Shown: piece after piece, positions 15,516-35,555 of the stretch | Layout of the letters: each line of letters begins with the position of its first letter | Position numbering within the stretch: position 1 is the first letter of the stretch | Assembly (NCBI GenBank): GCA_012522895.1 | Contig: JAAYJM010000195.1 | Coordinates: 1-40,406, forward strand | Source of the DNA: Ignavibacteria bacterium | GTDB lineage: Bacteria; Bacteroidota; Ignavibacteria; Kapaibacteriales; UBA2268 | Reading direction: 5' to 3' | Length of the DNA stretch: 40,406 nucleotides | Notes under the pieces: model-generated | What the model was told of the DNA's origin: nothing | What the model saw: only the letters and a program-made list of their open reading frames with translations | The model's database searches: none | Translations under genes and position numbers: made by a program

Positions 15516-16262
15516 ATGAAAAAAAAGAATTTTAACCAAGAGACCAAAGAAAACGTAAAAGATAATTTTCCGCTTAAGAAAAAGGACGAATTAAATACTG
15601 TAGAAAAGATCCAAATTTATATACAAGAAAACAGTAAAAAAATAATTACTTATTCAGTTGTTATTATTGTTGTTGTAGCTGCTTTCTTCTTTATTAAAAA
15701 TATGATAGAGAGTAATGCAGCAGAAAAAAAAGAGGCTGCTTCTGTGTCTTTAGCTCGGGTGCTTCCATTTTACACCGAGGGAGACTATGAAGTCGCACTT
15801 AAAGGCAATCCTTCCATCTATATCCGCGGCGAAAAGCTAATTGGGCTCAGCGAGATAGCTGATGCTTACGAAGGTTTAGATGAGGGCAAGGTAGCTGGAT
15901 TATACGCTGGAAATAGCTTATTGAATTTGAATAGATTTGAAGAATCCAAGAAATATTTTGATATAGCTTTAAAGTCTAAATCTAAAACAGTCCTTGAAGG
16001 TGCAAACGCTGGGATGGCTGTTGCTTTAGAGTCTTTGAAAGATTATGCAAATGCTGGCAAATACTATACTGAAGCTGCGGAGCTTGCACTTACTGCGGGC
16101 TTAAAAAACAGATATATGTTCTTTGCTGCGGTTTGTATTGAAAAATCTGGAAATAAAGAAAAAGCGATTGAGATGTATAGAGAGATAATTATTGAGGCTG
16201 GTTCTGAATTTGTAGGACTGTCTAAAGCTCGCTTAATTCGACTTGGCACAGTTATTGAGTAA
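15516..16262 (+). CDS. TPR-containing single-TM protein (YfgM-like)
   Basis: N-terminal TM (IITYSVVIIVVVAAFFFI) then TPR-type helices (AGLYAGNSLLNLNRFEESKKYFDIALKS; GNKEKAIEMYREIIIEAGSEFVGLSKARL). Confidence 0.75.
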   Translation: MKKKNFNQETKENVKDNFPLKKKDELNTVEKIQIYIQENSKKIITYSVVIIVVVAAFFFIKNMIESNAAEKKEAASVSLARVLPFYTEGDYEVALKGNPSIYIRGEKLIGLSEIADAYEGLDEGKVAGLYAGNSLLNLNRFEESKKYFDIALKSKSKTVLEGANAGMAVALESLKDYANAGKYYTEAAELALTAGLKNRYMFFAAVCIEKSGNKEKAIEMYREIIIEAGSEFVGLSKARLIRLGTVIE

Positions 16263-16349
16263 TGTTTTTTGGTTTTATTGATGAATTAAGAATATAAATG
16301 TATTTTTTTCATAAATTAATAATATAAATCATTTTTAATCGGAGGTATT

Positions 16350-19300
16350 ATGCATCGATTGTTTCGTTTAAGTTTCTTAGTGATGCTTTTCGGCATATTC
16401 CTGATTTGGGAAGCTGATGCCCAAAGGCCACAGGCTTACATCTCAGGTAAAATCGAGCCGAATGATGTAAGAATCTTACTTAAAGACACTACCTACATAA
16501 TCAATAGAGATTATGTGGTGGCAGGAACATTAATTATTGAACCGGGAACAACAGTGTTGTTCTATCCGAATGGCCGTTTGATTGATTCTGTCGGTGGCAG
16601 AATTATTGCAGACGGCTTTTCAAAGTCAGTTTATAATCAACACCCGGACGGAATCACTCCTTTGCCAGGGCACTCAAGCAACTTAGCAAGGCGTTTTACG
16701 GGCTATTATGACTTAAGGTATTTTGGATACCGCTCTGCTTCTGACCAAACAATCAAATGGACGACAGACAGAGAAAAAACAATCCATAGTGATAAGTATA
16801 ATTTAGTTTATAATTTACTTCTTGACACAGCTCAAAGGAAAATATCAACCCCCAGACCGGGTATTATTCCAGCAGCTAATCAGATTTGGATAAGCTATGA
16901 AGAAGCTATTATGTTCACAGCAGCTAAATTACATACTTTCGACCCAGTTAAAAACTTATATCCTTTAGATTCAGCAAGATTGAGTATTAAAACAGGAAGA
17001 ATTAACTTTATCGGACAGCCCGTGGACAACTTTTCAAGGGAATGGGGACATATTATAATTCTCCCAGGCGCCGGTATTTCTTTCTTTAGAAATTGCACAT
17101 TTGACGGATTTAGAAAAGATACAACAGTAGATAGAACAAACTACTACGGTTATGAAGCTTTTGCTAATCACGGAAACTGGATGGATATGCCTACTTGGCA
17201 AGTCGACAATTTGAACAATAGAATGAGAGTTCTTACAAATGGTAGCGGTGGCGCGATTACAACTTTCTCATCGCGCACTTGGCTTATCGACTGTGAGTTT
17301 AAAAATAATATGGCTCGCCATCGTGGTGGCGCCGTTCAATTTTTACAAGCTCCAAATGGACTCCCAACTGATCCAGCTTTTGCTTTCACTAATTTTTATC
17401 CAGCTATAAAGAATCCAAATATTACCGAAAGAGATGGCGCACCATCTAATGTGAACGCATTTGTTCCGGTGATTGACTATTTAGATGAGCAATTCCCGGA
17501 GCCAGTATTGTCAAGCTTTCCACTTGCAGCAAATCAACTGGATTTTGCAAGACAAGCTTATGATGATGGGCGTATGTCTATTTTCCTCGGTAGATTTAGA
17601 AATATAACATTTACAAATAATAAAGTATTACTTTCCAATATTGGCCAAAAGGCAGTTGGAACTCCTCCAGTCTTAATTGTTACTGATTTAGATAATGAAG
17701 CTGGAATTCAAAAAGACGGACGTAATACTGCAGCTGGCGGCGCTATGTATATTTATGGCTCCAATCCACTTGAAATTGGACTTGGCGTTAATAATAGCAT
17801 ATATATTAAAGCGGCAGATGGCGTTACAGACGAACTTCTTACTTTTGAAGATGATACTTTTGAGGCATTAAATAACAATGCCACATCTTATCAGCCAGTT
17901 TTAGAAAGAGTTCCTACTCAGCAGGGCGCCGTTGGTGGTGCTGTTTATGTTGGTAATCTTAATTTAGATAACCCATATTTGGTTAATGACGCTACTTCTT
18001 TAATAGTTGCTGGCGCATTTAAAAACAACTCAACAGTAACCCCATATATTAATGAGGATGTTGAAGAACTTGATATCGCTGCTAATTTTTCAAAAGGTGG
18101 CGCAATTTATACAAATTCAGATTTTGCCGATGCTCGCTTGCAAGTTCGTGGCGGACCGGCTAGAGTTAGAACAGCTAATGAAACAGAATTCATTAACAAC
18201 AGCTCAGGAGTTGGTGGCGCAATTTATGTTGAAGCTATTTGGGGAAATCAACAATCTCCCGTTCTTGGTGGTCATGATGTGAAAAGCTTAGCTGCTCAAT
18301 TAAACGACTATCCAAGAGATTATGGATTTAATGTTCTGTTCCAAAATAATGCTGCTCAATATTTTGGTGGCGCAATTTATACAGAAAGAAGCCCTGTAAT
18401 CACCGGCGCAGGTGGAATTGATGGATTGTCCTCAATGGGTTATGGTGGAGTTCGCCATATTAGATTCATAGAAAACACAGCTCGATATGCTGGCGGTGCA
18501 ATTGATGTCGATTTGTCGAATAGAGGGCTTTTGCCAGAATTTAGAGCAGTTCAAATTATTCGTGCAGAATTCTCAGAAAACAAAGTAGGCTTTAATTCAG
18601 AAATTTCTGCAGATAACAAAGCGATTATCCGTGGCGGCGGTGCAATTTATTCCGTTGATGCTGACATTAACTTAGTTAAGGGAACTGAGTTTAGAGCAAA
18701 CAAAGTGATGAATGGAAATGGCGCTGCTATTGCTTTAATCCGTCCTATTAGAGAAATAAAAAGATTCTTTTTAACAGATTTAGATAATGTAGTTTTTGAC
18801 CCATTGCTCAATAACATTGCAACTAATTTTGTTTCAAATGATGATGTATTTACATTTAAACCAAGTCCATACCCCGCACAAACAGGTATGTTGACTCGTT
18901 TTCTTGATAATGAAATCGTTGTAGAAAATGAGCTTCTTGAATCTCAAAGCGGCTCAGGCACAACGCAAATCGAAGTTCCAGGAACTATTGTAAGAAATGA
19001 TGACCTTTTTGCAATCACTTTCTTAAATCAAGAAACTGGCTTTGCTGTTGGAGAAAACGGAACTATTGTCAAGATAACTGAAGAAGGAACAAAATGGGAG
19101 TATGTTTCTGCAGCCCCAACTTCTTATTATACAGACATTGCATTTGTTACGAACAACATTGGCTACGCAACTTCTGTAGATGGCTTTTTAGCAAGAACAG
19201 TTGATGGTGGTATGAATTGGGCTCCATGGATTTTCTCGGGCTCGCAACTTAATGCCATTGCTTTCAACGGCTCAAAAGGTGCGGTTATTGGAAATGATGG

Positions 19301-22300
19301 TTTTATTGGTCTAACAAATGATGGCGGAACTAGTTGGGGAACTACCATTCCTGGCTTTGCTGCTCAACCAATTAATTTTACAGATAAAAACTTATATGGT
19401 TTATTCTGGGCAGATGCAGATAACTTATGGATTATCGGCTCCGAGGGAACTATTATTAAAGTAAGCACACTTGGTGGCTGGGAATATGTTACCTCAAATA
19501 CTTTTAACGACTTAAACTCGCTTTATTTTGTTAATGCTAATGTTGGCTATATTGTTGGAGAAGGCGCTATTGTTCTTAAAACAACTAATGGCGGAATTTC
19601 TTGGGAAGGCGATTATAGACCCGAAAACGTAGACTTTAATAAAGTTTCATTCAAATTAAATACTGGTTTTATCATTGGTGAAAACGGTGTTGTTCTTCAA
19701 ACTACAGATGCTGGTGAAACATGGGCTGAGCAAGTTTCCAACACTGATAAGGAATTATACGATCTATTTTTCGTTACACCGCAAATGGGTTATATGGTTG
19801 GTGAAAATGAGTCTGTTGAAGGAACAACTTATAATTCCAGCTTGATGATAACTCGCGATGGTGGCGCAACTTGGAATAAAGTAATCACCAGCGATACTGC
19901 AAGATTAGATGTTGTAAGATACCACCCACATCCAATGGTCAATTTACCAGAAAATGGCATTGGACTTGGTGGAGCAATCTACGTTCTTGACGTTATTAAC
20001 GCAGATAGAGCATTAAGAGAAGACAGCGTTCGCTTAAATAGAGTTAGATTCCAAGATAATAAAGCATATAGTGGCGCTGCAGTTTATTCAGATAACTACA
20101 ACTTAAACTTTATATTAACTCGTTGCTTAGTTACAGGTAACGAAGCAATCGAGCAAAACGATATTGGTATTTTGCAAAACGCAATTACCGGTCCATATAT
20201 TAGAAACCCATTGCCTGGTATTACAGAAAAGAACGTTGCTTCAAGCGATTTAGTTGGCTCAATCTTTTACGCAAACGTAATGGGTCCCTTGCCAGCTAAT
20301 ACATCTTCAATAGCAGCAAACTCAATTTATGATAACAATGCAAGATTCCTCTTCCGCTTGCCAGACGCTCCTAATACAAAAGGTGTTTTGGTTGGAACAA
20401 GTGGTATTGGCTATGGTGGAATCGATACTTTGCGTAGCAACTATTGGGGACATACCGAAGCTAATGTAAACATAGTTATTAACAACGTTCACGGTGGCTG
20501 GGCAAATGCAATTAAGGAAACATTTTTCATTCGCACAGACGATCAAAATCATTTAGGCTATATTTGGTGGAATAACGATAACCCAAGAATGAATTTATTA
20601 GAGCAAGGTCCATTTGAAAGCATTAATAGATTTAATTATCAACCGATTCCACTTCTTAACGTTCAAGGCGACGAAAACGAAGCTGCTGCAAACAGTATCC
20701 CAGAAAAACTTTTGATGTCCGGCTTTGTTTATGATATATACGATAAGGGAACAGACATTAAAACTGCTGACTATTCAAATCGCAGGATGAGCCCAATCGA
20801 AGACTTTGCGGTTGGTATTCCTCCAAAATTTGAATTATATTCTGATGCTTCTCAGCCATCAAATGGTCGCTATGTAAAGAGATATACAAGAGATCCTTTT
20901 GTTGCTGAAGCTTTAGATGAAAATTCTGAGTTGAAATATCCTTTGATTGCAATGTTGCAAGAAGAGTTTTATGCAGATAAAGATGGAACATTTTTCCATC
21001 CAGTTGGCTATCCCTTATATTTAGAAACAAAGATTGATTACGAAGGCTTTATAGACATTTCAAATCATGACCCAAGAGCTTTGAATGAAACTGTATTCTT
21101 CGTGGTTAATGAAAGCACTGGCGATTATATAAGAGTAAATATGAGGCAATTTTCAGAAGACGCAGTTCAAGGTTTAGCAGATGCAAGAAGTTTGTTTAGA
21201 GCAAGAGTAGAATTAGTGCCAGACTCTACAAACCGTTCTTCATCAGTTATTAAGCCTGGCTTAGCAAGACGTATTTCTGAAGGCTTGCCAACTTATGGAA
21301 GCTTATTCCAATTGCTTGATAGTTTAAACAGAAATCCTTACAATGAAGATGCTGCCACACTTCTTGGTAGAAAATACTATGAAAGCACAACTTCATTTGC
21401 AAATAAGACTAACTTATTTAGCAATAGACCAGATATGCCGCAAGCTGACCAAGGCAAGCAAACATTCTTTGCTGGCGAAAGGTATACAGCTTTGCCAGTA
21501 AATGTTGGCGACTCTATTTATATTATATCAAGGTCTTACTTATGGCAACACGGACCAAGTGAAGCTATTGCCAAAGGCTTGCATTTTGTAATTAGTGGTT
21601 CAGTTAATCCTCCCGATTACACTGGCGATATTCCAGCTTTGGGAGAAAGAAAAATTATTGGTATAGTTCCATCAGAATATCCTTGGAAGAGGGATCTTGG
21701 TCTTTCAGATACTATTTGGAATGATGATTTTATTAACAAAGTGCATTTGACTGAAAATCGCGTTTATCCTGTAAGAAAAGGTTCTTATAGCGATCCGAAT
21801 AGCATTTATTATACACTGCATGATGATGAAGCTGCAAGAGGCTTGAACACTGGCGATATGAAAGGACGCGACTCTATTTTAGCGGTAACCGCAGTAGATT
21901 TGAATAATTTTATTGACCCAATGTCCCTGTTGATTCCAACAGAATACACAAACTTATCTTATATGTATAAGTTTGATCGCAATAATGCACTTTTATACTG
22001 GCTCTGGGCTAAGATGATTCCAAGTTCATCTCCAGAAAAGGACGGTGCCGCTGGCTGGATGCAATTTAATGGCAAGCCAATTAACCCATTTGTAGTTCCG
22101 GAAGGCGAATGGCTTACTGTCCGAGTTGACAATTATCCTCCACACTGGAGAACTGTTGATAAGCTAAAGAAATTATCTGACTTAGATGAAGACTATATTA
22201 GCAAATTTATCAATTTATTTAGACCATATTTAAACGCACCTTTATATACAGGTTACTTAGCTCGTTTCTTACAGGCAGATACAATTGATGTCGGTTCAAA

Positions 22301-24515
22301 CTATCATTCACTTGATTTTAAATTCAACATAACTGTTGTTAACGAACCACCTAAATTCTTGCCACATAAGTCACCAAGGGCTTTGAATCCAACTCCAGTA
22401 ACCAGACCTAATTTAGACGTTACAAGACAGCAAATGCAAAATAATAACTTTGTAGTAGATGCAACTACCATTGTAGTTGATACAATTTTCTACCAAGATT
22501 CTTATTATACTTGCGACACTACTTTAGACGGAAAATTGATTGGTAACGTTACTGATAAGTTAAGATTCCAGGCAGACTTTAATACAGACGATGAAATGGA
22601 AGATGCTTATGCAGCGAGACTTGATTGGGAATTCCCCTTTGGTAGATTGAATTACTCTTTAATTGATAGACCTAACTTTATGGGGCCCCAATATCTTTAT
22701 GTTTATGGCTCTGATACTGATCTAGATCCTTTTGCTGTCGATCTTACTACTTATGGCAAGGTTAATATTAGAATTCCAGCTGCAGAGGCAAGACAGCTTC
22801 TAAAACCAGTTAATCAATATAATAGATATTTGGTCAATGATACCGTCTTTACTATTTTAGCTGAAGATGGTCATGGTGGTTTAACAAGTTTAAATGTTAA
22901 ACTGTTCATTAACTACGCTCCTGAAATTATAACCCAAACTCTTCCAGATGCTAAAGAAGATTATGATTATAATCCTGGATTGCTCGATAGCGCAAAAATG
23001 ATTAACGTGTTTGACGCTAACTTTGGGCAAGAGCATAGATATGAACTCGTTTATGAAGATTATCCATTTGACCAATTAGATAGAGACCCATGCTTTGCTG
23101 AAGCTGGAGTTTGGGACTTATCTGGAATGAAAACTACTCCTAAATGGCTCAAAATAAATGAGACAAGCGGTTTACTTTATGGAGTCCCAAGCATTGGGAA
23201 CGCTCCAAAGGATGAGCAAGTTACTGTCGTTGTTTGGGATATGATTGATGGCGAAAGAAAAATACCAGTTGTTAAGACATTTAACCTGTTTGTCGATTCA
23301 ACTAATCATGCGCCTCATTTTGTATCTTCTCCAGCAGTCCAATGTATTGATTATGGAAAACCTTATGAGGATTTCTTAGTTGTAAGCGATAGAGATTTGC
23401 TTAGAGCAAATATCGATGGCAGAACAGCTGAAGAGCTAACAGTAACTGTTACTCAACCAACAAGTGGCTTGAGCGCACAATTTATTGGCGGAGGAAAGAG
23501 CCCACAAGGAGACGAATACGATACAATTAGAGTATGGACAGATAACTTTGATTTGCCTCGCGATTCTGATGGTAAAATCACAATTAAAATTGAAGTAAAA
23601 GACAAAGCAAATAATAGAGTTGAATTAGTATATCGCTTGAAGATGTCAGATCTTACTAATTTTGTTGCAACTATTAAAGTTGAGAACTCAAGACCAGACG
23701 GTAGCCCAGGTGCATTCCAGCTCTTAGAATTTGGAACTGCAAATCCACAAACAGGCGTAACTACTGGTGATGGTTCTGACAACAACCCTGTTGGTATATT
23801 AGACTACAATTTCTGCGAATTTGAATTGCCACCAATACCAAATCAAGATATTTTTGATGTAAGATGGCAAATCCCACAAACTAACGGAACTTTAAGGAAT
23901 ATTTATCCTAAGGGTTCGGCAACTGAAGGCTCTTACATATACAGAGGTATTTTCCAAGCTGGTGGTGAAAAAGGCAATACCGGTATATACTACCCAATTC
24001 ATATTAGCTGGAATAGAACTGAAATTCCTCAAAAAGCTCAAGCAAGTGATCCAACTTGGTGGATTGGGGACGCTATTTCACTCGGCAACTATTTTAGCTA
24101 CAATATGAGCACAGGTGAAGGACGCAAGACATCAGATATTCAATACAGCATAACTGATGACGTTTGCAAGATTTCAATTGCAAGTGATGTTGTTAATGCT
24201 TTTGTAATTTATTACGATTGGACGAGCAGCGTTGATCAGCCAATCGCTGGCTTAGAAACTGCAATTACATCAATTTCACCTAACCCATTCGATGGAAATA
24301 CTAATATTCATTTTGAGATTGGAAAATCCAGCAAAGTTAGAATTGAAGTAGTTGATCAACTTGGAAATGTTGTCGCTTTAATATCAGACGCAGATTACAC
24401 ACCAGGACAATATACAATTAATTGGAACGCAAAAGACCTATCAAGTGGAACGTATACTTGTAGAATGGTTGCTGGCTCAGTTACATCAGCTTACAAAATG
24501 ATAATTGTAAAATAG
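16350..24515 (+). CDS. Giant (2721 aa) secreted multidomain surface protein: Pmp-like GGAIY beta-helix, inserted seven-bladed Ycf48-like propeller, Ig/cadherin-like domains, T9SS C-terminal sorting domain
   Basis: GGAGGT ribosome-binding site 5 nt upstream of the ATG; signal peptide MHRLFRLSFLVMLFGIFLIWEADAQ; at least nine GGA[IVM] rungs with FxxN motifs; seven GYAVGENGTIlkTtDGGxTW-type blades; C-terminus ISPNPFDGNTNIHFEIGKSSKVRIEVVDQLGNVVALISDADYTPGQYTINWNAKDLSSGTYTCRMVAGSVTSAYKMIIVK. Confidence 0.9.
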   Translation: MHRLFRLSFLVMLFGIFLIWEADAQRPQAYISGKIEPNDVRILLKDTTYIINRDYVVAGTLIIEPGTTVLFYPNGRLIDSVGGRIIADGFSKSVYNQHPDGITPLPGHSSNLARRFTGYYDLRYFGYRSASDQTIKWTTDREKTIHSDKYNLVYNLLLDTAQRKISTPRPGIIPAANQIWISYEEAIMFTAAKLHTFDPVKNLYPLDSARLSIKTGRINFIGQPVDNFSREWGHIIILPGAGISFFRNCTFDGFRKDTTVDRTNYYGYEAFANHGNWMDMPTWQVDNLNNRMRVLTNGSGGAITTFSSRTWLIDCEFKNNMARHRGGAVQFLQAPNGLPTDPAFAFTNFYPAIKNPNITERDGAPSNVNAFVPVIDYLDEQFPEPVLSSFPLAANQLDFARQAYDDGRMSIFLGRFRNITFTNNKVLLSNIGQKAVGTPPVLIVTDLDNEAGIQKDGRNTAAGGAMYIYGSNPLEIGLGVNNSIYIKAADGVTDELLTFEDDTFEALNNNATSYQPVLERVPTQQGAVGGAVYVGNLNLDNPYLVNDATSLIVAGAFKNNSTVTPYINEDVEELDIAANFSKGGAIYTNSDFADARLQVRGGPARVRTANETEFINNSSGVGGAIYVEAIWGNQQSPVLGGHDVKSLAAQLNDYPRDYGFNVLFQNNAAQYFGGAIYTERSPVITGAGGIDGLSSMGYGGVRHIRFIENTARYAGGAIDVDLSNRGLLPEFRAVQIIRAEFSENKVGFNSEISADNKAIIRGGGAIYSVDADINLVKGTEFRANKVMNGNGAAIALIRPIREIKRFFLTDLDNVVFDPLLNNIATNFVSNDDVFTFKPSPYPAQTGMLTRFLDNEIVVENELLESQSGSGTTQIEVPGTIVRNDDLFAITFLNQETGFAVGENGTIVKITEEGTKWEYVSAAPTSYYTDIAFVTNNIGYATSVDGFLARTVDGGMNWAPWIFSGSQLNAIAFNGSKGAVIGNDGFIGLTNDGGTSWGTTIPGFAAQPINFTDKNLYGLFWADADNLWIIGSEGTIIKVSTLGGWEYVTSNTFNDLNSLYFVNANVGYIVGEGAIVLKTTNGGISWEGDYRPENVDFNKVSFKLNTGFIIGENGVVLQTTDAGETWAEQVSNTDKELYDLFFVTPQMGYMVGENESVEGTTYNSSLMITRDGGATWNKVITSDTARLDVVRYHPHPMVNLPENGIGLGGAIYVLDVINADRALREDSVRLNRVRFQDNKAYSGAAVYSDNYNLNFILTRCLVTGNEAIEQNDIGILQNAITGPYIRNPLPGITEKNVASSDLVGSIFYANVMGPLPANTSSIAANSIYDNNARFLFRLPDAPNTKGVLVGTSGIGYGGIDTLRSNYWGHTEANVNIVINNVHGGWANAIKETFFIRTDDQNHLGYIWWNNDNPRMNLLEQGPFESINRFNYQPIPLLNVQGDENEAAANSIPEKLLMSGFVYDIYDKGTDIKTADYSNRRMSPIEDFAVGIPPKFELYSDASQPSNGRYVKRYTRDPFVAEALDENSELKYPLIAMLQEEFYADKDGTFFHPVGYPLYLETKIDYEGFIDISNHDPRALNETVFFVVNESTGDYIRVNMRQFSEDAVQGLADARSLFRARVELVPDSTNRSSSVIKPGLARRISEGLPTYGSLFQLLDSLNRNPYNEDAATLLGRKYYESTTSFANKTNLFSNRPDMPQADQGKQTFFAGERYTALPVNVGDSIYIISRSYLWQHGPSEAIAKGLHFVISGSVNPPDYTGDIPALGERKIIGIVPSEYPWKRDLGLSDTIWNDDFINKVHLTENRVYPVRKGSYSDPNSIYYTLHDDEAARGLNTGDMKGRDSILAVTAVDLNNFIDPMSLLIPTEYTNLSYMYKFDRNNALLYWLWAKMIPSSSPEKDGAAGWMQFNGKPINPFVVPEGEWLTVRVDNYPPHWRTVDKLKKLSDLDEDYISKFINLFRPYLNAPLYTGYLARFLQADTIDVGSNYHSLDFKFNITVVNEPPKFLPHKSPRALNPTPVTRPNLDVTRQQMQNNNFVVDATTIVVDTIFYQDSYYTCDTTLDGKLIGNVTDKLRFQADFNTDDEMEDAYAARLDWEFPFGRLNYSLIDRPNFMGPQYLYVYGSDTDLDPFAVDLTTYGKVNIRIPAAEARQLLKPVNQYNRYLVNDTVFTILAEDGHGGLTSLNVKLFINYAPEIITQTLPDAKEDYDYNPGLLDSAKMINVFDANFGQEHRYELVYEDYPFDQLDRDPCFAEAGVWDLSGMKTTPKWLKINETSGLLYGVPSIGNAPKDEQVTVVVWDMIDGERKIPVVKTFNLFVDSTNHAPHFVSSPAVQCIDYGKPYEDFLVVSDRDLLRANIDGRTAEELTVTVTQPTSGLSAQFIGGGKSPQGDEYDTIRVWTDNFDLPRDSDGKITIKIEVKDKANNRVELVYRLKMSDLTNFVATIKVENSRPDGSPGAFQLLEFGTANPQTGVTTGDGSDNNPVGILDYNFCEFELPPIPNQDIFDVRWQIPQTNGTLRNIYPKGSATEGSYIYRGIFQAGGEKGNTGIYYPIHISWNRTEIPQKAQASDPTWWIGDAISLGNYFSYNMSTGEGRKTSDIQYSITDDVCKISIASDVVNAFVIYYDWTSSVDQPIAGLETAITSISPNPFDGNTNIHFEIGKSSKVRIEVVDQLGNVVALISDADYTPGQYTINWNAKDLSSGTYTCRMVAGSVTSAYKMIIVK

Positions 24516-24523
24516 TCATAAAA

Positions 24524-24551
24524 ATGCAGGTATCTTTAAGGATACCTGCAT
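24524..24551 (+). terminator. 11-bp perfect stem-loop (ATGCAGGTATC-TTTAAG-GATACCTGCAT) between the giant gene and the next gene; no U-tract
   Basis: Direct reading; 8 nt after the stop codon. Could be a terminator, processing site or 3'-end stabiliser. Confidence 0.55.
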
Positions 24552-24592
24552 AATTAATTATGAAAATAATTTATAAATATATGGAGAAAAAT

Positions 24593-26413
24593 ATGAAGAA
24601 ATACCTATCATTTATGCTCGGGGCTTTGTTTATGCTTGGAATTTTAATTTCATTGCCTGCAACAGCCCAAGTTTATAGTGAATTTGAGCCACCTGTCAAT
24701 GTCAAAAAAGGTAGTTACACCGACCTTGTTAACGATGTGTACATTCCGCACTCCTCGTTTACTCGTGTGTCTTCTGCAATTAACGATACGATAAATGGAT
24801 ATGCTCAGATTCCAATCGGCTTTGAATTTGAATTCAATGGGAATTCATACTCGAATCTTTGGGTTTGCGTTAATGGTTTTGTTACTTTCAACAATCCACT
24901 TTCGCTTGCTCAAGATCTGCCAGATGGACTTTTTACTTTCGATGACGCTCGTTTTCAAAATAACGTGATTGCTCCTTATTGGGGAAATCACTGCTATAGA
25001 GCATCTTCAAGAATTTCTTATAAACAAGAAGAAAACAATACTATTTTGACAGTTCAATGGCAAAATTTGAACGTCAATAGCCCTATTGATCCAACAAGAG
25101 TTGCATCTTTTCAAGTAAAACTTTACAAATCGACCGATGCAAGCTCAAAGCAAGGAAATATAGAATTTAGCTACAGCTCAGTTGGAATGAACGTCGGAAC
25201 TGGCGCCGCTGTTGGAATTAAAGGCGGAAACTTTAACGACTTTTTAAATGCTTTGCAGTATTACAATCCAAGTCAAGCAGCCATTGCAACAACTAAAACA
25301 TTGATTTTCCCACCTACAGGCGCAACAGATAGTATTTTCTTGTTTAGACCTACCATTAGATACAGAGATACATCTAATTGGGGTGATGGTGATGTCGATA
25401 TGTCAAAGAACTTTGCTCACGCTGGAATGCCACAGAATCGTTATGTAACAATTAATGACGCTTACATAATTTTAAATTCAATTGCTACAAGAACACCTTT
25501 AGACAGTGTTCACGGACGTCAAGCATTCCACGGAGACGTAAATCATAATGGCCGTTATTATTATGATTTAGCTCAAAACAAAAAAGTGAAAATTCCTTGG
25601 AGAGACCTGTATTACGATCAAAATATTAACGTTCCACCTTATGTGAATGTTCCATCAAAAAATAATATATTTTTCGAGGTAACCGAATATGACGCCGCAT
25701 TAATACTGCACTATCTAAGCGCAAGATTGCCAAAATTACCTTGGCTAATTGATACAATCGTCCAGTTCGGAAAAAACATTCCACAAGATTTAGTTGCAAA
25801 TAATCTTTCATTAGGAGAAATCACAAAAGTTGGAGATAACAGATACACATTCCCACTTTTCTTAAATGGTTTTTATAATGGAACTATTGCTTCTAAATTA
25901 GAGTTAAACGCTAATATAATAGAGGTAGAATCAAATATTAGCTCTGAGAACTTTTTGATTGATTATTCAAATAATCTTCTTGTATTTGCTGGTTCTGGCG
26001 AATTTGATAAATCATCGCCCATGGCATATATTACAATTTCAAGCTCAGAAAAAGATTTGAATATTAGCGATCTCACATTTAATGATAATGAACTTGGAAA
26101 CCAAAGCTATCGCTTGCCTTTGGAACAAAGCTCAAGCAATGCTTTGCTTTTGCAAAACAGTCCAAATCCATTTGCAAATAGCACAAGTATTATTGTTAAT
26201 ATTGCTGAAGATGCTAATTACACACTTTCAATCTATGACCTTTCTGGCAATAGAATTAAAGTATTAGCAAATGAATTTTTAAGTGCTGGGCAATACTCAT
26301 ATCATTTTGATGGAGTTGATTCAAATGGAAATCAATTAAGCAACGGTATGTATATTTATAAACTTACCAGTGCTAATACTTCTGTTTCTATGAAAATGAT
26401 GCTTAATAGATAA
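24593..26413 (+). CDS. Secreted T9SS-sorted protein with nidogen-like N-terminal domain, dockerin-like segment and cohesin-like segment
   Basis: GGAG site 6 nt upstream of ATG 24593 (better than the ORF-track start 24560); signal peptide MKKYLSFMLGALFMLGILISLPATAQ; dockerin-like GDGDVDMS...YVTINDAYIILNSI and GDVNHNGRYYYD...FFEVTEYDAALILHYL; CTD LLLQNSPNPFANSTSIIVNIAEDANYTLSIYDLSGNRIK... Confidence 0.82.
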   Translation: MKKYLSFMLGALFMLGILISLPATAQVYSEFEPPVNVKKGSYTDLVNDVYIPHSSFTRVSSAINDTINGYAQIPIGFEFEFNGNSYSNLWVCVNGFVTFNNPLSLAQDLPDGLFTFDDARFQNNVIAPYWGNHCYRASSRISYKQEENNTILTVQWQNLNVNSPIDPTRVASFQVKLYKSTDASSKQGNIEFSYSSVGMNVGTGAAVGIKGGNFNDFLNALQYYNPSQAAIATTKTLIFPPTGATDSIFLFRPTIRYRDTSNWGDGDVDMSKNFAHAGMPQNRYVTINDAYIILNSIATRTPLDSVHGRQAFHGDVNHNGRYYYDLAQNKKVKIPWRDLYYDQNINVPPYVNVPSKNNIFFEVTEYDAALILHYLSARLPKLPWLIDTIVQFGKNIPQDLVANNLSLGEITKVGDNRYTFPLFLNGFYNGTIASKLELNANIIEVESNISSENFLIDYSNNLLVFAGSGEFDKSSPMAYITISSSEKDLNISDLTFNDNELGNQSYRLPLEQSSSNALLLQNSPNPFANSTSIIVNIAEDANYTLSIYDLSGNRIKVLANEFLSAGQYSYHFDGVDSNGNQLSNGMYIYKLTSANTSVSMKMMLNR

Positions 26414-26419
26414 ATCGAA

Positions 26420-27622
26420 ATGTTTTATCGTGTTTTTAATATAATAATTATTGTGTGGTTGCTTTTTCTAAGTAGCCACACAATAATATTAACAAAAGAA
26501 GCGATGACGGTGCAGCTGAAAAGCAATAATCTTGTTGATGTCTGCGGAAACAAAAAAAATTCAGTTATCGTTTATATTGACATTGGAAATATTTTAAAAA
26601 GCGATTCTTTAGCTGGGTATAATTTTGAATTGCTGTATAATGATGAAAAGCTAAAGTTTAATACAGCGCTGGCAACAGGCTCTTTGACAGAAGGAATAAG
26701 TGCAAAGGATTTCAATTTTGCCGATCCTGGAAAAATATTCGGCTATGCCCTTAAAACAAACGGGTTGATAGAGGGTAATAAGCCGCTAATAGCTTTTCTT
26801 GGTGATTATAAAGGCGATTGCCCCGATAGCGCTTTTGTTAATATTTCGTTCATTGAATTTACAGAATATTTTAAAAAGAAAGCTGATACATTAAAAAATT
26901 GCTTTGTCGAAGCACTTGTTTTTGAAAAAGATGAAAGATTTCTTTCTTCTCAATTTGAGCTGGATTCTATAATAATTCCTTTTGAGGAAAACACTGTTTC
27001 TTCAAAAGTTATGATTTATAGCTATGATGACGCAAGATTGGATACAGTTGATTTTCAAATTAATATATCGGACATAGAAAGGTTTGAAGTTCAAAGCATC
27101 AGCTCTAATACGGATAACATAGAAATTTTAGATTTTAATTCTGAAACAGGGATTTTAAGGACAGTTGTAGATGCTTCTATAAAAGAGGACGATTGGTTCA
27201 TTATTGAGTTGAACGAGAAGTTGAAGGATGAAAATTCCGTTCAATTGAATATTGCACCAATCAAGATAAACGATTGCTCATGCATTAGTTTTCTTAGAGG
27301 AAGCAAACAAATTTTAAAAAGTGAAATTAAAGATACAACTTCAACTGAGGATACAACGGCAAATAGCGTTTATATCAAGCACTTTAAAGAGATTGAAAGT
27401 TTTTATAACAAAGCCTTAGAAGAATTTGTCATTTTAGATAAGAATATGGAGCTTGAAAGTGTATCGCTTATGACATTAGAAGGTAAAATATTGCAAAAGA
27501 AAGATTTACTTAATAGACAAAATAGATATAGTATTGATGTCTCAAACTATGCAAATGGTTTGTTCCTTGTTCAGCTAAAAAACAGAAATGTGATAAAGAA
27601 TATATTATTAATAAAATATTAA
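26420..27622 (+). CDS. Secreted protein with cohesin-like N-terminal region and T9SS-type C-terminal domain
   Basis: SLAGYNFELLYNDEKLKFNTALATGSLTEGISAKDFNFADPGKIFGYALKTNGLIEGNKPLIAFLGDY resembles cohesin-fold domains; C-terminal MELESVSLMTLEGKILQKKDLLNRQNRYSIDVSNYANGLFLVQLKNRNVIKNILLIKY. Confidence 0.65.
   Translation: MFYRVFNIIIIVWLLFLSSHTIILTKEAMTVQLKSNNLVDVCGNKKNSVIVYIDIGNILKSDSLAGYNFELLYNDEKLKFNTALATGSLTEGISAKDFNFADPGKIFGYALKTNGLIEGNKPLIAFLGDYKGDCPDSAFVNISFIEFTEYFKKKADTLKNCFVEALVFEKDERFLSSQFELDSIIIPFEENTVSSKVMIYSYDDARLDTVDFQINISDIERFEVQSISSNTDNIEILDFNSETGILRTVVDASIKEDDWFIIELNEKLKDENSVQLNIAPIKINDCSCISFLRGSKQILKSEIKDTTSTEDTTANSVYIKHFKEIESFYNKALEEFVILDKNMELESVSLMTLEGKILQKKDLLNRQNRYSIDVSNYANGLFLVQLKNRNVIKNILLIKY
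26447..26487 (+). promoter_or_regulatory. Long hairpin (12-bp perfect ATTATTGTGTGG/CCACACAATAAT arms, extendable inward with wobble pairs) inside the signal-peptide-coding region
   Basis: Direct reading; located 27-68 nt into the predicted ORF at 26420. Confidence 0.5.
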
Positions 27623-27650
27623 ATTATAATTGTTTTATATGGAGGTTCTT

Positions 27651-30600
27651 ATGAAGTTCAATAATTTACATCAAAGAAGCATCGGCTTGATTTTCGCCCT
27701 TTTATTAGTGGGATTCATTTCGATGCTTACTGAGAATGCATTTAGCCAGAGTCGTCCAAGCATTCCATTGCTAAGCTTAACAGGCGCAGCAGATGGCTGG
27801 AATGATGTCTGGTATCCCGATGGGAGGGTTTGGATTCCACCTTCAAAAGGAAACGAAGTTCGTGAATTCCTTTTGCCGGTTTTTGTAAAAAACCAATGGA
27901 AATCATATCCTCAAACCGCTGATCAATATAAGGCGGATCCAATTCACTCTTTCAAATTTTCTATGCTTTACGATAGCTCTGCTATCAAACCAGTAGATAT
28001 TCAAACTTTCCACCCGGTCAACGACCCCTTGGATCCAAGATTTAGATATGCTCCAGATCCGCTGGCAAAAGATTTTATTGTAGATTGGGAAGTATTTCAC
28101 AACCATAGCTACAGAGAGTTTGTTAACCCTTCTACTCCTTTACAAGATAAGTTAAAAGGGCGCGAAATTGTAATTACAGGTATGTCTTCTAATGCATTAC
28201 CAAATTCTGATGATTACGAGGTGCTTTTATATGTTCGTTTCCAGGTTATTGCGAAAGAAGGTTTGGTTGGAACAGCACGCAAGACTTTGATTTACATTAA
28301 TGCAGATGAAATAATGTATAACGACTTAAACGTTGCGAAATATGCTCCGTTCTTAAATCTTCGTCCCTACAATCCAAACGTAGAATTCGATTTTCCAGAT
28401 CCTACTCCATTTGACCACGTTACTGGATTAGGTGGATTTTCTGGCTTAGCAGGTATAAAAAATAGACCACCCGACCCAACAAATCCACCACCGAACTCAC
28501 AGTGGAACGTTGAGCCGACTTTACCGGGTGTTATTTATATTAACATTACCGATAACCTGCCAAAAATTAATGTTTCTTTGGAAAGAGCTATTGGAACACC
28601 TTCTCCCTTCTCATTATTGCAAGTTGTTCCGGGCGAGCTTTGGCACATGACCGACCCAATCACCGATGATGAGGGGAATATTGAAGCTCCAAGCTATTCA
28701 GGTGATAGAAAAATTAAATTAGCAAACAGCACAACTCGCTCAAGAATTATAGATTTAGAAATTGAATCTGACCAACCCTGGTTGCTTTTCAAAATGGACG
28801 GCATCGTTCCGCCAAGCACTATTTACAATAATTGGTCAACAAAAGGAACTATTTTTAGAATTGATAATAGTATTTTGGGAACAGACCGCGACCCGAATGG
28901 CAGCACTACAAATCTTGATCCAGAAATTTTCCTTAGCATTCGTTGCGATAATACTCAGCTTGCAGCCTTAGAGCAAAAAGCTGGAATTTATGTAGGACAT
29001 ATTACTTTTAGATCTACAACAGCCTCTATTTCACCCGCACGCTTGAGAGTAACATTTATTAACTTTGCTAACCCAGAAGAACCAGAATTGGATCAAGTTT
29101 GGGGAGAGCATCGCGGAATAAAAATTGATGTAAAGAACTCAAGAGGCGCTCATACACACAGAACACAACTTATTTTTGGAACTGGTAAAAGAGCCACAAA
29201 CGGCGTTGATACCCTTTATGGCGAACACGCTCATATAACTCCACCTTCCGGATTTTACGCAAGATGGTTCCCTACAGACGAAACCGTGTTGCAAGATGTT
29301 CCATATGGATTTGGAGACTTTGCTCCTAATGACGAAGAACGCTATTATTTCCCACGCTCACGTGACATTAGAAGCTCCTATGACACCGTTACTTCTATTA
29401 AATATCTTTGCAAGTATTCAGCTGGTAGTTCCGATTATTATCCGGTAATATTAGAATGGAATACAGAAGATTTTCCACCAAATGCACAGCTTTATTTGCG
29501 AGATGCTTTGAACGGTATTAAATTTAACGTTAATATGAGAGAGGCTACAAATATTAGCGGAACAAGGTATTCATATACTTTGAATGACCCGATGGATACT
29601 ACTTTCGTAATTGAGTATACATTGCCAAAAGTTGTTCAATATGTTGATGCAAACAATCAGCCTATTATTAAAAAGGGTTGGAATTTGCTTTCCTTACCTG
29701 TTAAACCTTTGGATTTAAGATATAACAAAGTATATACGCAAGCGGTAAATATTCCTTATTACTTCTCTCAAAATCAATATCAGCAAGCTGAAGAGTTGAA
29801 AGCTGGTGTGGGTTACTTCATCAAGTATAGCGACACCGTGGACACTCGTTTTGCTGGTGCTCATATTATGAATATTTCCCTTGAGCAAGACAATGCAGTT
29901 CGCGTTTATCCTGGTTGGAATACTATTGGAACTTTATCTGTGCCAGTTTCTATTGACCAGATTAGATTTGATGTTATTCCAAACTCAACTTTAAGAGAGC
30001 CACAGACAAGATATACCAAAAAATTTGGTGTTTGGGCTTATAACACAGACAGGGGCTACGAAGAAGTTTCCGGTTTAACTCCAGGTCTTGGCTATTGGAT
30101 TAAAGTTGGTCGCGATGACGAATACCCGGGCCACGGCTATTTGAAAATTGAAAGAGGAACCTCACGTATTTTTGCTAACGATGCACCAAACGAGAGACAA
30201 TCAGTTTTAAGCGATGCCGTTAAATTCAATATCAACGCTCAAAATGCTTCTAATAATTTATATTGGACCTCAAATAATTCAATAGATTTGAATAGCTTTG
30301 AGATGCCACCAGCACCTCCATCTGAATTGTTTGACGTCAGATTTAGCAGCAATAGAAATCTTGAAAATTCAAACGCTACTATTTTATTGCAGGCAGCCGA
30401 TTATCCACTCTCAATTTCTGTTGATAATCCAACAAGGAACTTTAAGCTTTATGACGCTGTTACAAATGAATTCTTTGGTGAAATTAATAATAGCACAAAC
30501 AGTGTAACTATTGCTCAAAGCAAAGCTAATGCAATTAAAGTAGAAGTAGTTCCAAGCTCAACAGAATTTGGTTTGAGCTGCTATCCTAATCCAGTAGCAA

Positions 30601-30821
30601 GCAATTCTACTTTAAGCTTTGTTATCACAGAGAATACTCAGGTTAGCTTAAAGCTTTACGATGCACTTGGAAATGAAGTTTCTGATTTGCTTAATGAATA
30701 CAAAGCCGCTGGCGAGTATAGCATTAATTTGAATGCAAGCACACTCGCAAATGGCAAATATATTTGCAAATTAATTGCTGGACAAAATCAAGCAGTCCAA
30801 ATGATTACTGTTGTTAAATAA
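27651..30821 (+). CDS. Secreted multidomain T9SS-sorted protein (cohesin-like N-terminus, BACON-like region, GWN modules)
   Basis: GGAGG site upstream of ATG 27651 (MKFNNLHQRSIGLIFALLLVGFISMLTENAFSQ); IDLEIESDQPWLLFK...IYVGHITFRSTTASISPARLRVTF; duplicated GWN(L/T)...GYF/WIK modules; CTD GLSCYPNPVASNSTLSFVITENTQVSLKLYDALGNEVSDLLNEYKAAGEYSINLNASTLANGKYICKLIAGQNQAVQMITVVK. Confidence 0.8.
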   Translation: MKFNNLHQRSIGLIFALLLVGFISMLTENAFSQSRPSIPLLSLTGAADGWNDVWYPDGRVWIPPSKGNEVREFLLPVFVKNQWKSYPQTADQYKADPIHSFKFSMLYDSSAIKPVDIQTFHPVNDPLDPRFRYAPDPLAKDFIVDWEVFHNHSYREFVNPSTPLQDKLKGREIVITGMSSNALPNSDDYEVLLYVRFQVIAKEGLVGTARKTLIYINADEIMYNDLNVAKYAPFLNLRPYNPNVEFDFPDPTPFDHVTGLGGFSGLAGIKNRPPDPTNPPPNSQWNVEPTLPGVIYINITDNLPKINVSLERAIGTPSPFSLLQVVPGELWHMTDPITDDEGNIEAPSYSGDRKIKLANSTTRSRIIDLEIESDQPWLLFKMDGIVPPSTIYNNWSTKGTIFRIDNSILGTDRDPNGSTTNLDPEIFLSIRCDNTQLAALEQKAGIYVGHITFRSTTASISPARLRVTFINFANPEEPELDQVWGEHRGIKIDVKNSRGAHTHRTQLIFGTGKRATNGVDTLYGEHAHITPPSGFYARWFPTDETVLQDVPYGFGDFAPNDEERYYFPRSRDIRSSYDTVTSIKYLCKYSAGSSDYYPVILEWNTEDFPPNAQLYLRDALNGIKFNVNMREATNISGTRYSYTLNDPMDTTFVIEYTLPKVVQYVDANNQPIIKKGWNLLSLPVKPLDLRYNKVYTQAVNIPYYFSQNQYQQAEELKAGVGYFIKYSDTVDTRFAGAHIMNISLEQDNAVRVYPGWNTIGTLSVPVSIDQIRFDVIPNSTLREPQTRYTKKFGVWAYNTDRGYEEVSGLTPGLGYWIKVGRDDEYPGHGYLKIERGTSRIFANDAPNERQSVLSDAVKFNINAQNASNNLYWTSNNSIDLNSFEMPPAPPSELFDVRFSSNRNLENSNATILLQAADYPLSISVDNPTRNFKLYDAVTNEFFGEINNSTNSVTIAQSKANAIKVEVVPSSTEFGLSCYPNPVASNSTLSFVITENTQVSLKLYDALGNEVSDLLNEYKAAGEYSINLNASTLANGKYICKLIAGQNQAVQMITVVK

Positions 30822-32340: not shown

Positions 32341-33162
32341 ATGACAAGAGCATCTTTTTTATTAAAATTTATAGCGATACTGCTTCTAACTTCGAGTTCG
32401 CTTGGGCTGGCGCAAATTAGAATTGATTTTAGCGATGCAGCTTTTCCAAGGGCTAAGAAAGCAAACATTTTTGTTGAGGCGGAAGGGAATTTTGATGCAG
32501 TAAACGAAATAAAAATAGTGCTGAAATATAATTCTTATGTTATTGATATTCTTAAAATTACTGGAAGTGAAAAGCATATTATCGGCTGCTCCGAGCCGGA
32601 TTTAATTAGAAAATTTGATAAAATTGATTCTGCAACAATAGAATTTTCTTGCAATGAAATAAACGCAAAAGCTGGGAAAAGACTTTTTGATATAGAAATC
32701 GAAGGGCTTGCCTCGCCAGATTCCTTGACTTACATTTTTATAGAAAGTATTTATTTTGATGGAAAAAAGCAAGTTCTTGGTTTTCAAAAGAATAGTAAAA
32801 TATTAGTGCAAGGCAGCTCGATTTTCCAGCAAATTGAAGGTATGGGCTTAGCTTACCCAAATCCTTTTTTTGACAAAATATACATACCTTTTGCCCTTTC
32901 TAAAGAATCGAATGTTGATTTTTATATTTATTCTGCAAGTGGAAGCCTTATTTTCGATAAATCTGCTATTGGCAAAGAAATAATTATTAGAAGCGAAAGC
33001 GGAAATGTTTCGGGCAACATAGATTTAAACAAAGCTCTTGAAAAGGGAAGATATATAATTGAGTTTGCTCCAAGGAGCTGGAGTTTTTCAACCGCCCGAT
33101 ATTACTTTTTATTAAAAACGGATAGAGACATATATAGTTCTATACTACTTTATGTAAAATGA
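32341..33162 (+). CDS. Secreted protein with cohesin-like domain and T9SS CTD-like tail
   Basis: Start probably ATG 32341 (MTRASFLLKFIAILLLTSSSLGLAQ) or 32317 as in the ORF track; KANIFVEAEGNFDAVNEIKIVLKYNSYVIDILKITG...; tail MGLAYPNPFFDKIYIPFALSKESNVDFYIYSASG. Confidence 0.6.
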   Translation: MTRASFLLKFIAILLLTSSSLGLAQIRIDFSDAAFPRAKKANIFVEAEGNFDAVNEIKIVLKYNSYVIDILKITGSEKHIIGCSEPDLIRKFDKIDSATIEFSCNEINAKAGKRLFDIEIEGLASPDSLTYIFIESIYFDGKKQVLGFQKNSKILVQGSSIFQQIEGMGLAYPNPFFDKIYIPFALSKESNVDFYIYSASGSLIFDKSAIGKEIIIRSESGNVSGNIDLNKALEKGRYIIEFAPRSWSFSTARYYFLLKTDRDIYSSILLYVK

Positions 33163-35555
33163 TGAAAAGCAAAGCAAAACATATAAATAAGCCGCTTTTT
33201 AGTAAAACTAACAAACAGTTTGCATGGATTATTCTTATCCTTGTTTTTTGCTTTTCAAGTTTGCTTTCTCAAAAATCTTATGCTTCAAATGATACGAAAA
33301 ACTCGGTGGGTAGAGAATTTTGGATTTGCTTTCAAAAGAATTTTAAAGAATCGAAGCAAAGTTCGTCCCGAGACAGCTTGCAGCTTGAACTTTTTATTTC
33401 TGGCGATAAAGACGCAAGAGTCATCATAGAAATAAAGGGAATTGGCTATAAAAATGTGGTGGATATTAAAAAGGACGAGGTTCTAAACATCCCACTTCCT
33501 AAAGAAGCGCAAGTCCTTAGTAGCGATAAAATTGAGCAACTTGCTGTATATATAAAGTCCGATAACCCAATAACAGTTTATGGCTTAAATAGACGTTTTC
33601 AGACCACAGATTCTTTTCTTTGTTTTCCAATGGAGGTGCTTGGAAAAGAATATCGCGCAATGGCTTATTACGTTTCAGATGGTCTAATGTCTCAATTTGC
33701 TATTGTGGCAACCGAGGACAATACCGATGTTAATATTCTGCCTTCTGTTCACACAAGCAACCATTTAGCGGAACAGCTTTATACGGTTAAGCTAAATAAA
33801 GGCGAGGTTTATCAAGTTGTTGCAAAGAACGACAATACTAATAAATGCGATTTAACTGGCTCAATAATCAAGGCAAATAAGAAAATTGCTGTTTTTAGCG
33901 GGCATCAATGTGCTTATGTTCCGCAAAAAATTCTTGCCTGCAATCATTTAATTGAGCAGATGCCTCCTGTTCCCTCTTGGGGAAAGCACTTTTACATTGG
34001 CAAACTGCAAGGTCGCTCTTTTTATACGTATAGAGTTTTAGCTAACGAGACGGATACTCGAATTTTTGAAGATGATAAACTTGTTGCAACGCTAAAAAAT
34101 GGTGAATTTTACGAAAATAATTCTGATCAAGACATTCAAGTTACAGCAGATAAACCCGTTTTAGTTGCCCAATACTCGCAAGGCTTTAAAAACTCTGATT
34201 CTATTGGCGACCCAATGATGATTATGGTCAGCCCTACACAGCAATTTTTGAAGCATTATCGCTTTGCTACTCCAGTCAACGGGCAATGGCGCCACTATAT
34301 TAATGTTGTTTCACCCACAAACTCTGTTAACACAATTTTGCTGAACGGCAAGCCAGTTGATACCACAAGATTTGAGCTGCTTGGGAAATCGCGCTATTCT
34401 ATTGCCTGCATTGAAGTTCCTTTTGGGACTCATATTATTCAAGGCGCAATGCCTTTTGGTATGTATTCTTATGGCTTTGGTTTTGGACGCGATTCTTATG
34501 ATGCTTATGGAACTATGGCCGGACAATCTTTCGTAGATTATCAGCCAGCTGAAGACGTGCTTGCTCCGATTGGGGAATGCGAAAAAACCGATTCATATAC
34601 CGAGCTTACTTTTTGGGACGATAGAGATGACGACACAGGCATTTTATCAGTAAAAGTGCTTGAAAATGAATATATGATCGCAAGCATTCCAGAGATTAGC
34701 GCCGGAGCTCCAAGAGCTTCTTTCAAGGTTACGCCGCAGTTTAAAGACGCTTCCGGAAGAATTGTTTTTCAGGTTTTGGACATTGCTTTAAATAAATCAG
34801 TTTTCACGCTTTGCTATTTATACGATTTGCCTTTGAATAGATTTATTTTCAAGCTTAGCGAGGGAAATGTTGAAAATTGCTCTTCTGATGGCGGCTGGTA
34901 TGCAGGTGGATTTTTAAAGTTATCTGCAAATATGCACTCTGCTTCATTTTCGTCAAGTGGCAATTTAATTTCAAATGGCAATTTTTCTAATAGTGCTGGC
35001 GTTGGAGGTTTTGCTGGATTATATTTAGGGCGAAGAGTTGGAGGTCCTTACATTCTATCTGCTCGCTTATCACTTGAAAATTATGGAGGAACGATAGAAA
35101 GTCCCGACAGCATCAGCTCGAAAGTTCGCACCGAAACTGGGGAGCTAAAAACTCTCCAAGAAGCAAGAACAGTTACTCTTGACGGCTTGTTTTTAAATCT
35201 CAACTTTGCTTGCGAATACTATTTAAACCCAAGTATTTATCTTCTGGGGGGGCTTAATCTTGGCTTTAGCTTATCCAGTGCGATAAGTGCGGAGCAGACG
35301 ATTCTTTCACCAAGCGATTTTGCATACCAAGGTGATGTTCGCTCTTTTCCATTGAACCTAAAAAATTTAAACTCGATGAACAAACTTAGACTTGGCGCTT
35401 TTGCGGGTCTTGGCTTTACCGTTCCTATTCATCGCAGGTTCAATCTTTTCACCGAAGTCTACTATAATCATTCATTATCAAATATAATTGACGATGGCAC
35501 TTGGAAAATTCACAATCTAAGCTTCCAGCTTGGCGCAAGATTTAGAGTTAGATAA
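33159..35555 (+). CDS. IgGFc-binding-like surface protein with C-terminal predicted outer-membrane beta-barrel
   Basis: N-terminal GREFWICFQKNF...ISGDKDARVIIEI...VYGLNRRFQTTDSFLCFPMEVLGKEYRAMAY...FAIVATEDNTDVNILPS...KANKKIAVFSGHQCAYVP; C-terminal alternating strands ending GAFAGLGFTVPIHRRFNLFTEVYYNHSLSNII...FQLGARFRVR. ATGA overlap with the upstream gene. Confidence 0.75.
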   Translation: MMKSKAKHINKPLFSKTNKQFAWIILILVFCFSSLLSQKSYASNDTKNSVGREFWICFQKNFKESKQSSSRDSLQLELFISGDKDARVIIEIKGIGYKNVVDIKKDEVLNIPLPKEAQVLSSDKIEQLAVYIKSDNPITVYGLNRRFQTTDSFLCFPMEVLGKEYRAMAYYVSDGLMSQFAIVATEDNTDVNILPSVHTSNHLAEQLYTVKLNKGEVYQVVAKNDNTNKCDLTGSIIKANKKIAVFSGHQCAYVPQKILACNHLIEQMPPVPSWGKHFYIGKLQGRSFYTYRVLANETDTRIFEDDKLVATLKNGEFYENNSDQDIQVTADKPVLVAQYSQGFKNSDSIGDPMMIMVSPTQQFLKHYRFATPVNGQWRHYINVVSPTNSVNTILLNGKPVDTTRFELLGKSRYSIACIEVPFGTHIIQGAMPFGMYSYGFGFGRDSYDAYGTMAGQSFVDYQPAEDVLAPIGECEKTDSYTELTFWDDRDDDTGILSVKVLENEYMIASIPEISAGAPRASFKVTPQFKDASGRIVFQVLDIALNKSVFTLCYLYDLPLNRFIFKLSEGNVENCSSDGGWYAGGFLKLSANMHSASFSSSGNLISNGNFSNSAGVGGFAGLYLGRRVGGPYILSARLSLENYGGTIESPDSISSKVRTETGELKTLQEARTVTLDGLFLNLNFACEYYLNPSIYLLGGLNLGFSLSSAISAEQTILSPSDFAYQGDVRSFPLNLKNLNSMNKLRLGAFAGLGFTVPIHRRFNLFTEVYYNHSLSNIIDDGTWKIHNLSFQLGARFRVR

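Follow-up and report, generated by a model that had tools for sequence, protein, structure and literature searches.

Can a whole folded domain enter a repetitive solenoid without destroying it, and is such an insert functional or merely tolerated? A locus of an Ignavibacteria bacterium from the group Candidatus Kapabacteria (Kapaibacterium) offers a clean test case. The window, that is the whole stretch of 40,406 nucleotides analysed here (contig JAAYJM010000195.1 of assembly GCA_012522895.1, a 2.66-Mb draft genome), encodes a giant secreted protein in which a beta-propeller interrupts the repeats of a predicted beta-helix. The first-pass annotation of this DNA, made from the sequence alone, had described the arrangement as a seven-bladed Ycf48-like propeller inserted inside a Pmp-like beta-helix.

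Taken as a whole, the following account appears likely to us. The protein would be a surface protein exported by the type IX secretion system (T9SS), with an N-terminal half that forms a PMP-type beta-helical stalk. A complete propeller of seven blades, of the PSII_BNR kind that is abundant in these genomes, would have entered this stalk in the common ancestor of a single family-level clade. The in-frame insertion would have taken place in a flexible surface loop that lies between two rungs, and would have split the tract GSGTTQxG-xDVKRxHP at the hyphen. The propeller would fold as an independent side domain while the stalk remains continuous beneath it, and it would since have been inherited vertically, evolving faster than the stalk, with clean loss about four times and, in one lineage, a probable duplication that placed a copy in an Ig-like domain elsewhere in the protein. 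As a displayed binding module, it may tune the stalk protein while remaining dispensable for the core function of the latter.

The propeller and the helix around it

The features that carry this account lie in one reading frame:

16,350 to 24,515, forward strand: giant secreted protein of 2721 aa, a single unbroken open reading frame that spans the whole region at issue
17,217 to 18,911, forward strand: N-terminal stretch of the PMP-type beta-helix (residues ~290-854), whose last rung is MLTRFLDN; Chlam_PMP match at 2.6e-18
18,948 to 18,974, forward strand: SGSGTTQIE, the left half of the ancestral loop that the propeller splits, homologous to GSGTTQxG of empty-site relatives
19,005 to 19,883, forward strand: seven-bladed PSII_BNR/Asp-box beta-propeller (residues 886-1178); PF14870 match at 2.1e-31, Foldseek match to Ycf48
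19,908 to 19,934, forward strand: DVVRYHPHP, the right half of that loop, homologous to DVKRxHPG of empty-site relatives
19,944 to 20,450, forward strand: resumed helix from LPENGIGLGGAIYVLD to SNYWG (residues 1199-1367); Chlam_PMP match at only 0.0069

Rungs of the GGA[IVLMF] or GAA type begin at residues 300, 326, 463, 529, 583, 622, 673, 715, 763 and 791, and after a gap they appear again at residues 1207 and 1242. The first GGA-type rung lies at nucleotide 17,247 and the resumption at nucleotide 19,968, which agrees with the earlier description of rungs running from about 17,250 to 18,730, stopping, and resuming at about 19,965. Strict GGA[IVLMF] motifs are strongly enriched in the two helix segments, with 10 observed against 0.19 expected in shuffles (maximum 3). 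The N-terminal part of the helix was modelled by AlphaFold2 with a predicted local distance difference test score (pLDDT) of mostly 80-95, and the resumed helix ranks with the best-conserved parts of the family. When the PDB was searched with a profile of the helix, nothing matched, and the helix fold therefore rests on the Pfam repeats, the motif enrichment and the predicted strand pattern.

Between the two segments lies exactly one complete seven-bladed propeller, and its previously proposed limits (18,998-19,890) proved accurate to about 10 bases. When the three pieces were searched separately against Pfam, the middle one matched PSII_BNR (PF14870) with 109.8 bits against a cut-off of 27, as well as BNR and Sortilin-Vps10. 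The blades occupy residues 886-919, 927-961, 967-1008, 1015-1047, 1055-1089, 1096-1128 and 1136-1178, and five of the seven carry the Asp-box motif [S/T]xDxGxxW or a close variant. An AlphaFold2 model of residues 281-1440, based on an alignment of the window protein and 30 relatives, reaches a mean pLDDT of 73.8, with the propeller mostly at 75-90. All seven blades show the A-B-C-D strand pattern in this model, with low confidence (pLDDT ~45) for the fourth strand of blade 3. Crystal structures of Ycf48 ranked first in a Foldseek search of the model (E 1.8e-12, target TM 0.72-0.76), and designed seven-bladed propellers aligned with a target TM of up to 0.83; Ycf48 is also the best solved relative by sequence (PDB, 7.2e-19). 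These structural matches support a closed and complete ring of seven blades as the predicted fold.

The relatives of the protein reveal what the site looks like before and after the insertion. A profile of the region that follows the propeller identified 80 named loci, and 79 proteins were placed in a tree, 37 of them filled (the window included) and 42 empty. The distance between the left and right flank profiles falls into two classes, 15-38 aa in empty alleles and 311-337 aa in filled ones, the only exceptions being L135-L137, whose match to the left profile stops early and in which no propeller was found. Since the host region is joined by a short linker in the 42 empty-site homologues, the propeller is a nested insertion. 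Outside one family-level clade, the ancestral tract, GSGTTQxG followed by xDVKRxHPG...RENGxGLGGAIY, is uninterrupted in every relative, for example as MGSGTTQMGLKQIDIKRFHPG...RENGVGLGGAIYILD or MGSGITQLGDVKRVHPGLPLRENGIGLGGAIYVLD, and in filled alleles it is split, as in SGTGTTQIG [propeller] VDVKRWHPD..LPENGVGLGGAIYILD. In the window the rung after the insertion begins at 19,944. Because both halves of the tract can be read in the window and in the empty relatives, the insertion point is known within a few residues.

The flanks might instead be two separate beta-solenoids on either side of an ordinary propeller, like beads on a string, with no single fold interrupted. Several observations weigh against the nested account and speak for such a string. 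The designation of the flanks as Pmp-like holds for the left piece, which exceeds the Chlam_PMP (PF02415) cut-off, but not firmly for the right piece, which falls under the curated one. Ahead of the insertion the models show a short helix and a linker of low confidence, and confidence is low at the linkers and over the last 100 residues modelled. An AlphaFold2 model of an empty-site relative (L079, residues equivalent to 281-1440) gave only weak Foldseek matches to the PDB and viral libraries (E > 0.09), so that no solved solenoid is a significant match for the continuous helix. On the other hand, a short loop is all that joins the flanks in the empty relatives, the left FLDN rung ends about 20 residues before the insertion point, and a GGAIY rung starts about 20 residues past it. 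Furthermore, the L079 model is of high confidence up to the insertion loop, drops to a pLDDT of ~52 at the linker, and regains strands at 62-85 for about 80 residues before confidence falls, which places strands on both sides of the linker. We therefore regard separate solenoids as unlikely. Continuity of the helix in three dimensions, backed mainly by the empty alleles and the shared rung motifs, is supported but not proven, and the exact geometry of the nesting would be that suggested by the models.

Probable gain and loss of the insert

The history of the insert was traced on a host tree built without the propeller. As this tree comes from a quick maximum-likelihood search and has several long branches, its inner branching is provisional. 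All 37 filled proteins fall in one clade of 42 (SH-aLRT 100), and all 37 rows outside it are empty. Five empty alleles are nested inside the clade (L089; L140; L093; L079 with L076), and parsimony requires five changes, the simplest series being a single gain followed by four losses.

These nested alleles show that losses do happen, and the propeller could in principle be ancestral to the whole protein family and have been lost independently in all other families. This is rejected by the tree and the outgroups and appears extremely improbable: every row outside the clade is empty, the deeper outgroup loci L203-L205, from other orders, have no propeller either, and an ancestral propeller would need more than the five changes. 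The empty alleles inside the clade could also be assembly errors, as nearly all the genomes concerned are draft assemblies of uncultured organisms. However, one genus shows empty-length alleles in three assemblies (G027, G028, G029), and three other lineages have them too, in frame and cleanly linked; this independent recurrence makes assembly error a most unlikely explanation.

The propeller and its host share their history to a large extent. Distances in the propeller and host trees are strongly correlated (Mantel r = 0.86, reached by 0 of 2000 permutations), and the evolutionary rate of the propeller is about 1.7 times that of the host (ratio 1.68). Constraining the site propellers together with a second copy found in L107 is not rejected (p-AU 0.31), and the site propellers alone give 0.16.

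A different history would have several independent insertions at a permissive hot-spot loop in place of one insertion with losses. L077 is filled, yet L140 and L093, the two closest to it, are empty, and the second propeller of L107 indicates that the module can move. In addition, the free propeller tree does not contain one strict clade of site propellers; L077 and L072 are left unresolved in it, and other propellers are interleaved with low support. Set against this are the strong agreement of the two trees and the constraint that was not rejected. The empty allele L140 also reads TTQKEGT before LVDVNLYN, which is similar to the linkers of filled alleles and may be the scar of an excision. 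Taken together, the single clade and the congruence of the trees make one gain, vertical descent and about four losses the best reading, and repeated insertion stays a minor rival of low probability.

The second propeller of L107 (genome G007, 3091 aa) is also seven-bladed and lies at residues ~2326-2590, in a region that adjoins a weak match to He_PIG, an Ig-like domain. In relatives, the hairpin turn at this position reads VTVVVWDMID GERK IPVVKTFNLFVDS, and L107 has instead VTVLVWD [propeller] SDLKQFNMKVKRADH. It matches the first propeller of L107 itself best (33% over 240 aa, E 7.7e-31), and in the tree the two copies group together at 90/87, with a long branch. The second copy thus probably arose from the first by duplication into an Ig-like domain. 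We see about an even chance that the propeller is a portable module, able to move intact and folded from a loop of one fold to a loop of an unrelated fold in a single polypeptide. It would have entered the beta-helix loop once, at the base of the clade, and then, as a copy of itself, the Ig-like hairpin of L107, with clean removal repeated elsewhere. If true, this would amount to a natural experiment in domain transplantation and excision, in which the ancestral, inserted, duplicated and lost states all survive.

Other propellers in these genomes bear on the possible origin of the insert. Two free-standing propellers of another family (G109:C32:600-2309 and G109:C56:25595-27358) have the top scores among non-site propellers, ~200-214 bits, and are possible closest living relatives of the inserted one. 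An open reading frame of ~1400-1430 aa with a PSII_BNR propeller recurs in G002, G007, G027, G028, G056, G060, G089, G109, G110, G115 and G120; it is possibly another conserved protein and a candidate source of the propeller.

The host protein, its locus and likely role

The remaining features concern the export and the genomic surroundings of the protein:

16,350 to 16,424, forward strand: apparent N-terminal signal peptide MHRLFRLSFLVMLFGIFLIWEADA, read off the sequence
24,273 to 24,506, forward strand: T9SS type A C-terminal sorting domain; Por_Secre_tail 9.2e-09, TIGR04183 1.6e-07
15,516 to 16,262, forward strand: tetratricopeptide repeat (TPR) protein, the conserved neighbour on the upstream side, found at 72 of 78 related loci
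24,560 to 26,413, forward strand: protein with a T9SS C-terminal domain (CTD), first conserved downstream neighbour
26,420 to 27,622, forward strand: T9SS-CTD-like protein, second conserved downstream neighbour; domain score just under the cut-off
27,630 to 30,821, forward strand: T9SS-CTD protein, third conserved downstream neighbour

Both sorting-domain scores of the giant protein exceed their curated cut-offs, and the genome of the window encodes SprA and a T9SS sortase. The sorting domain and the presence of the machinery point to a T9SS substrate, for which export to the surface is predicted. The T9SS tolerates folded bulky cargo.

Among good genomes, 40 of 42 from the same family and 88 of 101 from the order contain the gene, essentially as a single copy, and it is rare outside the order. 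The listed members of family f7 (G093-G100) appear to be without the giant protein altogether. The literature searched contained no paper describing the protein or the nesting of a propeller in a solenoid. The architecture had been called unusual for a T9SS substrate; within the family-level clade, the nesting is the rule and no oddity. The present analysis provides a first annotation for a giant, almost universal secreted protein of Kapabacteria and for its conserved five-gene locus.

This locus (15,516-30,821, forward strand) has the same order and strand in 49 of the 49 loci in which all four neighbours were found, filled or empty, and the counts for each neighbour are broadly similar with and without the propeller. 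As the locus is unchanged either way, its core role is probably independent of the propeller. The five gene products are candidate members of a surface complex. By analogy with the side domains on the beta-stem of Hbp, an autotransporter, the propeller is best read as a dispensable accessory module that would be displayed on a T9SS-delivered stalk, and most likely it would bind a partner or ligand.

Farther downstream (33,159-35,555, forward strand), one protein joins an IgGFc_binding domain (PF17517, 3.7e-75) to an outer-membrane beta-barrel domain (PF13568).

Comparison with known systems

The propeller shares its seven-bladed fold and its Pfam family with Ycf48/HCF136, but Ycf48-type proteins are free-standing, whereas the propeller of the window is embedded in a T9SS protein of 2721 aa. 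The arginine patch of Ycf48 binds D1 (PMC10403576). Its RxxxRR signature is missing in all 36 of the relatives' site propellers checked, and a profile alignment places N/K at the corresponding columns, with ambiguous blade register. The equivalog model of Ycf48 (NCBIfam NF010237) gives only 98.4 bits against a cut-off of 326. The label "Ycf48-like" is thus justified for the fold and the Pfam family, and identity with Ycf48 itself is ruled out by the score far below the equivalog cut-off and the lack of the patch motif.

The flanks resemble the chlamydial-type PMP repeats of bacterial surface proteins in their GGAIY/FxxN rungs and in the Chlam_PMP match of the left segment. The window protein differs in carrying a T9SS sorting domain and not an autotransporter barrel, and in having its repeats broken by a propeller.

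A parallel in function, which is an analogy and not homology, is offered by the autotransporter Hbp. Its side domains d1-d5 are set as independent domains into loops of the beta-helical stem and are dispensable for export, and the intact stem is needed for stability (PMC3521207). Hbp is a type V autotransporter, whereas here the carrier is a T9SS substrate, the side domain is a whole propeller of 300 aa, and both empty and filled alleles occur naturally.

In itself, the interruption of one domain by another, as seen here, is common: it is reported for ~20% of multidomain proteins, in which the inserts have a median length of 115 residues and termini that lie close together (PMC13114784). At ~300 aa the propeller is larger than usual, a further point against the proposed account. 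The uninterrupted ancestral state is not always kept among living relatives, but here it survives in dozens of them, the losses can be counted and the junction is defined with near-residue precision. The case is of interest mainly because the states before and after insertion, as well as the lost and duplicated states of the inserted propeller, can all be read.

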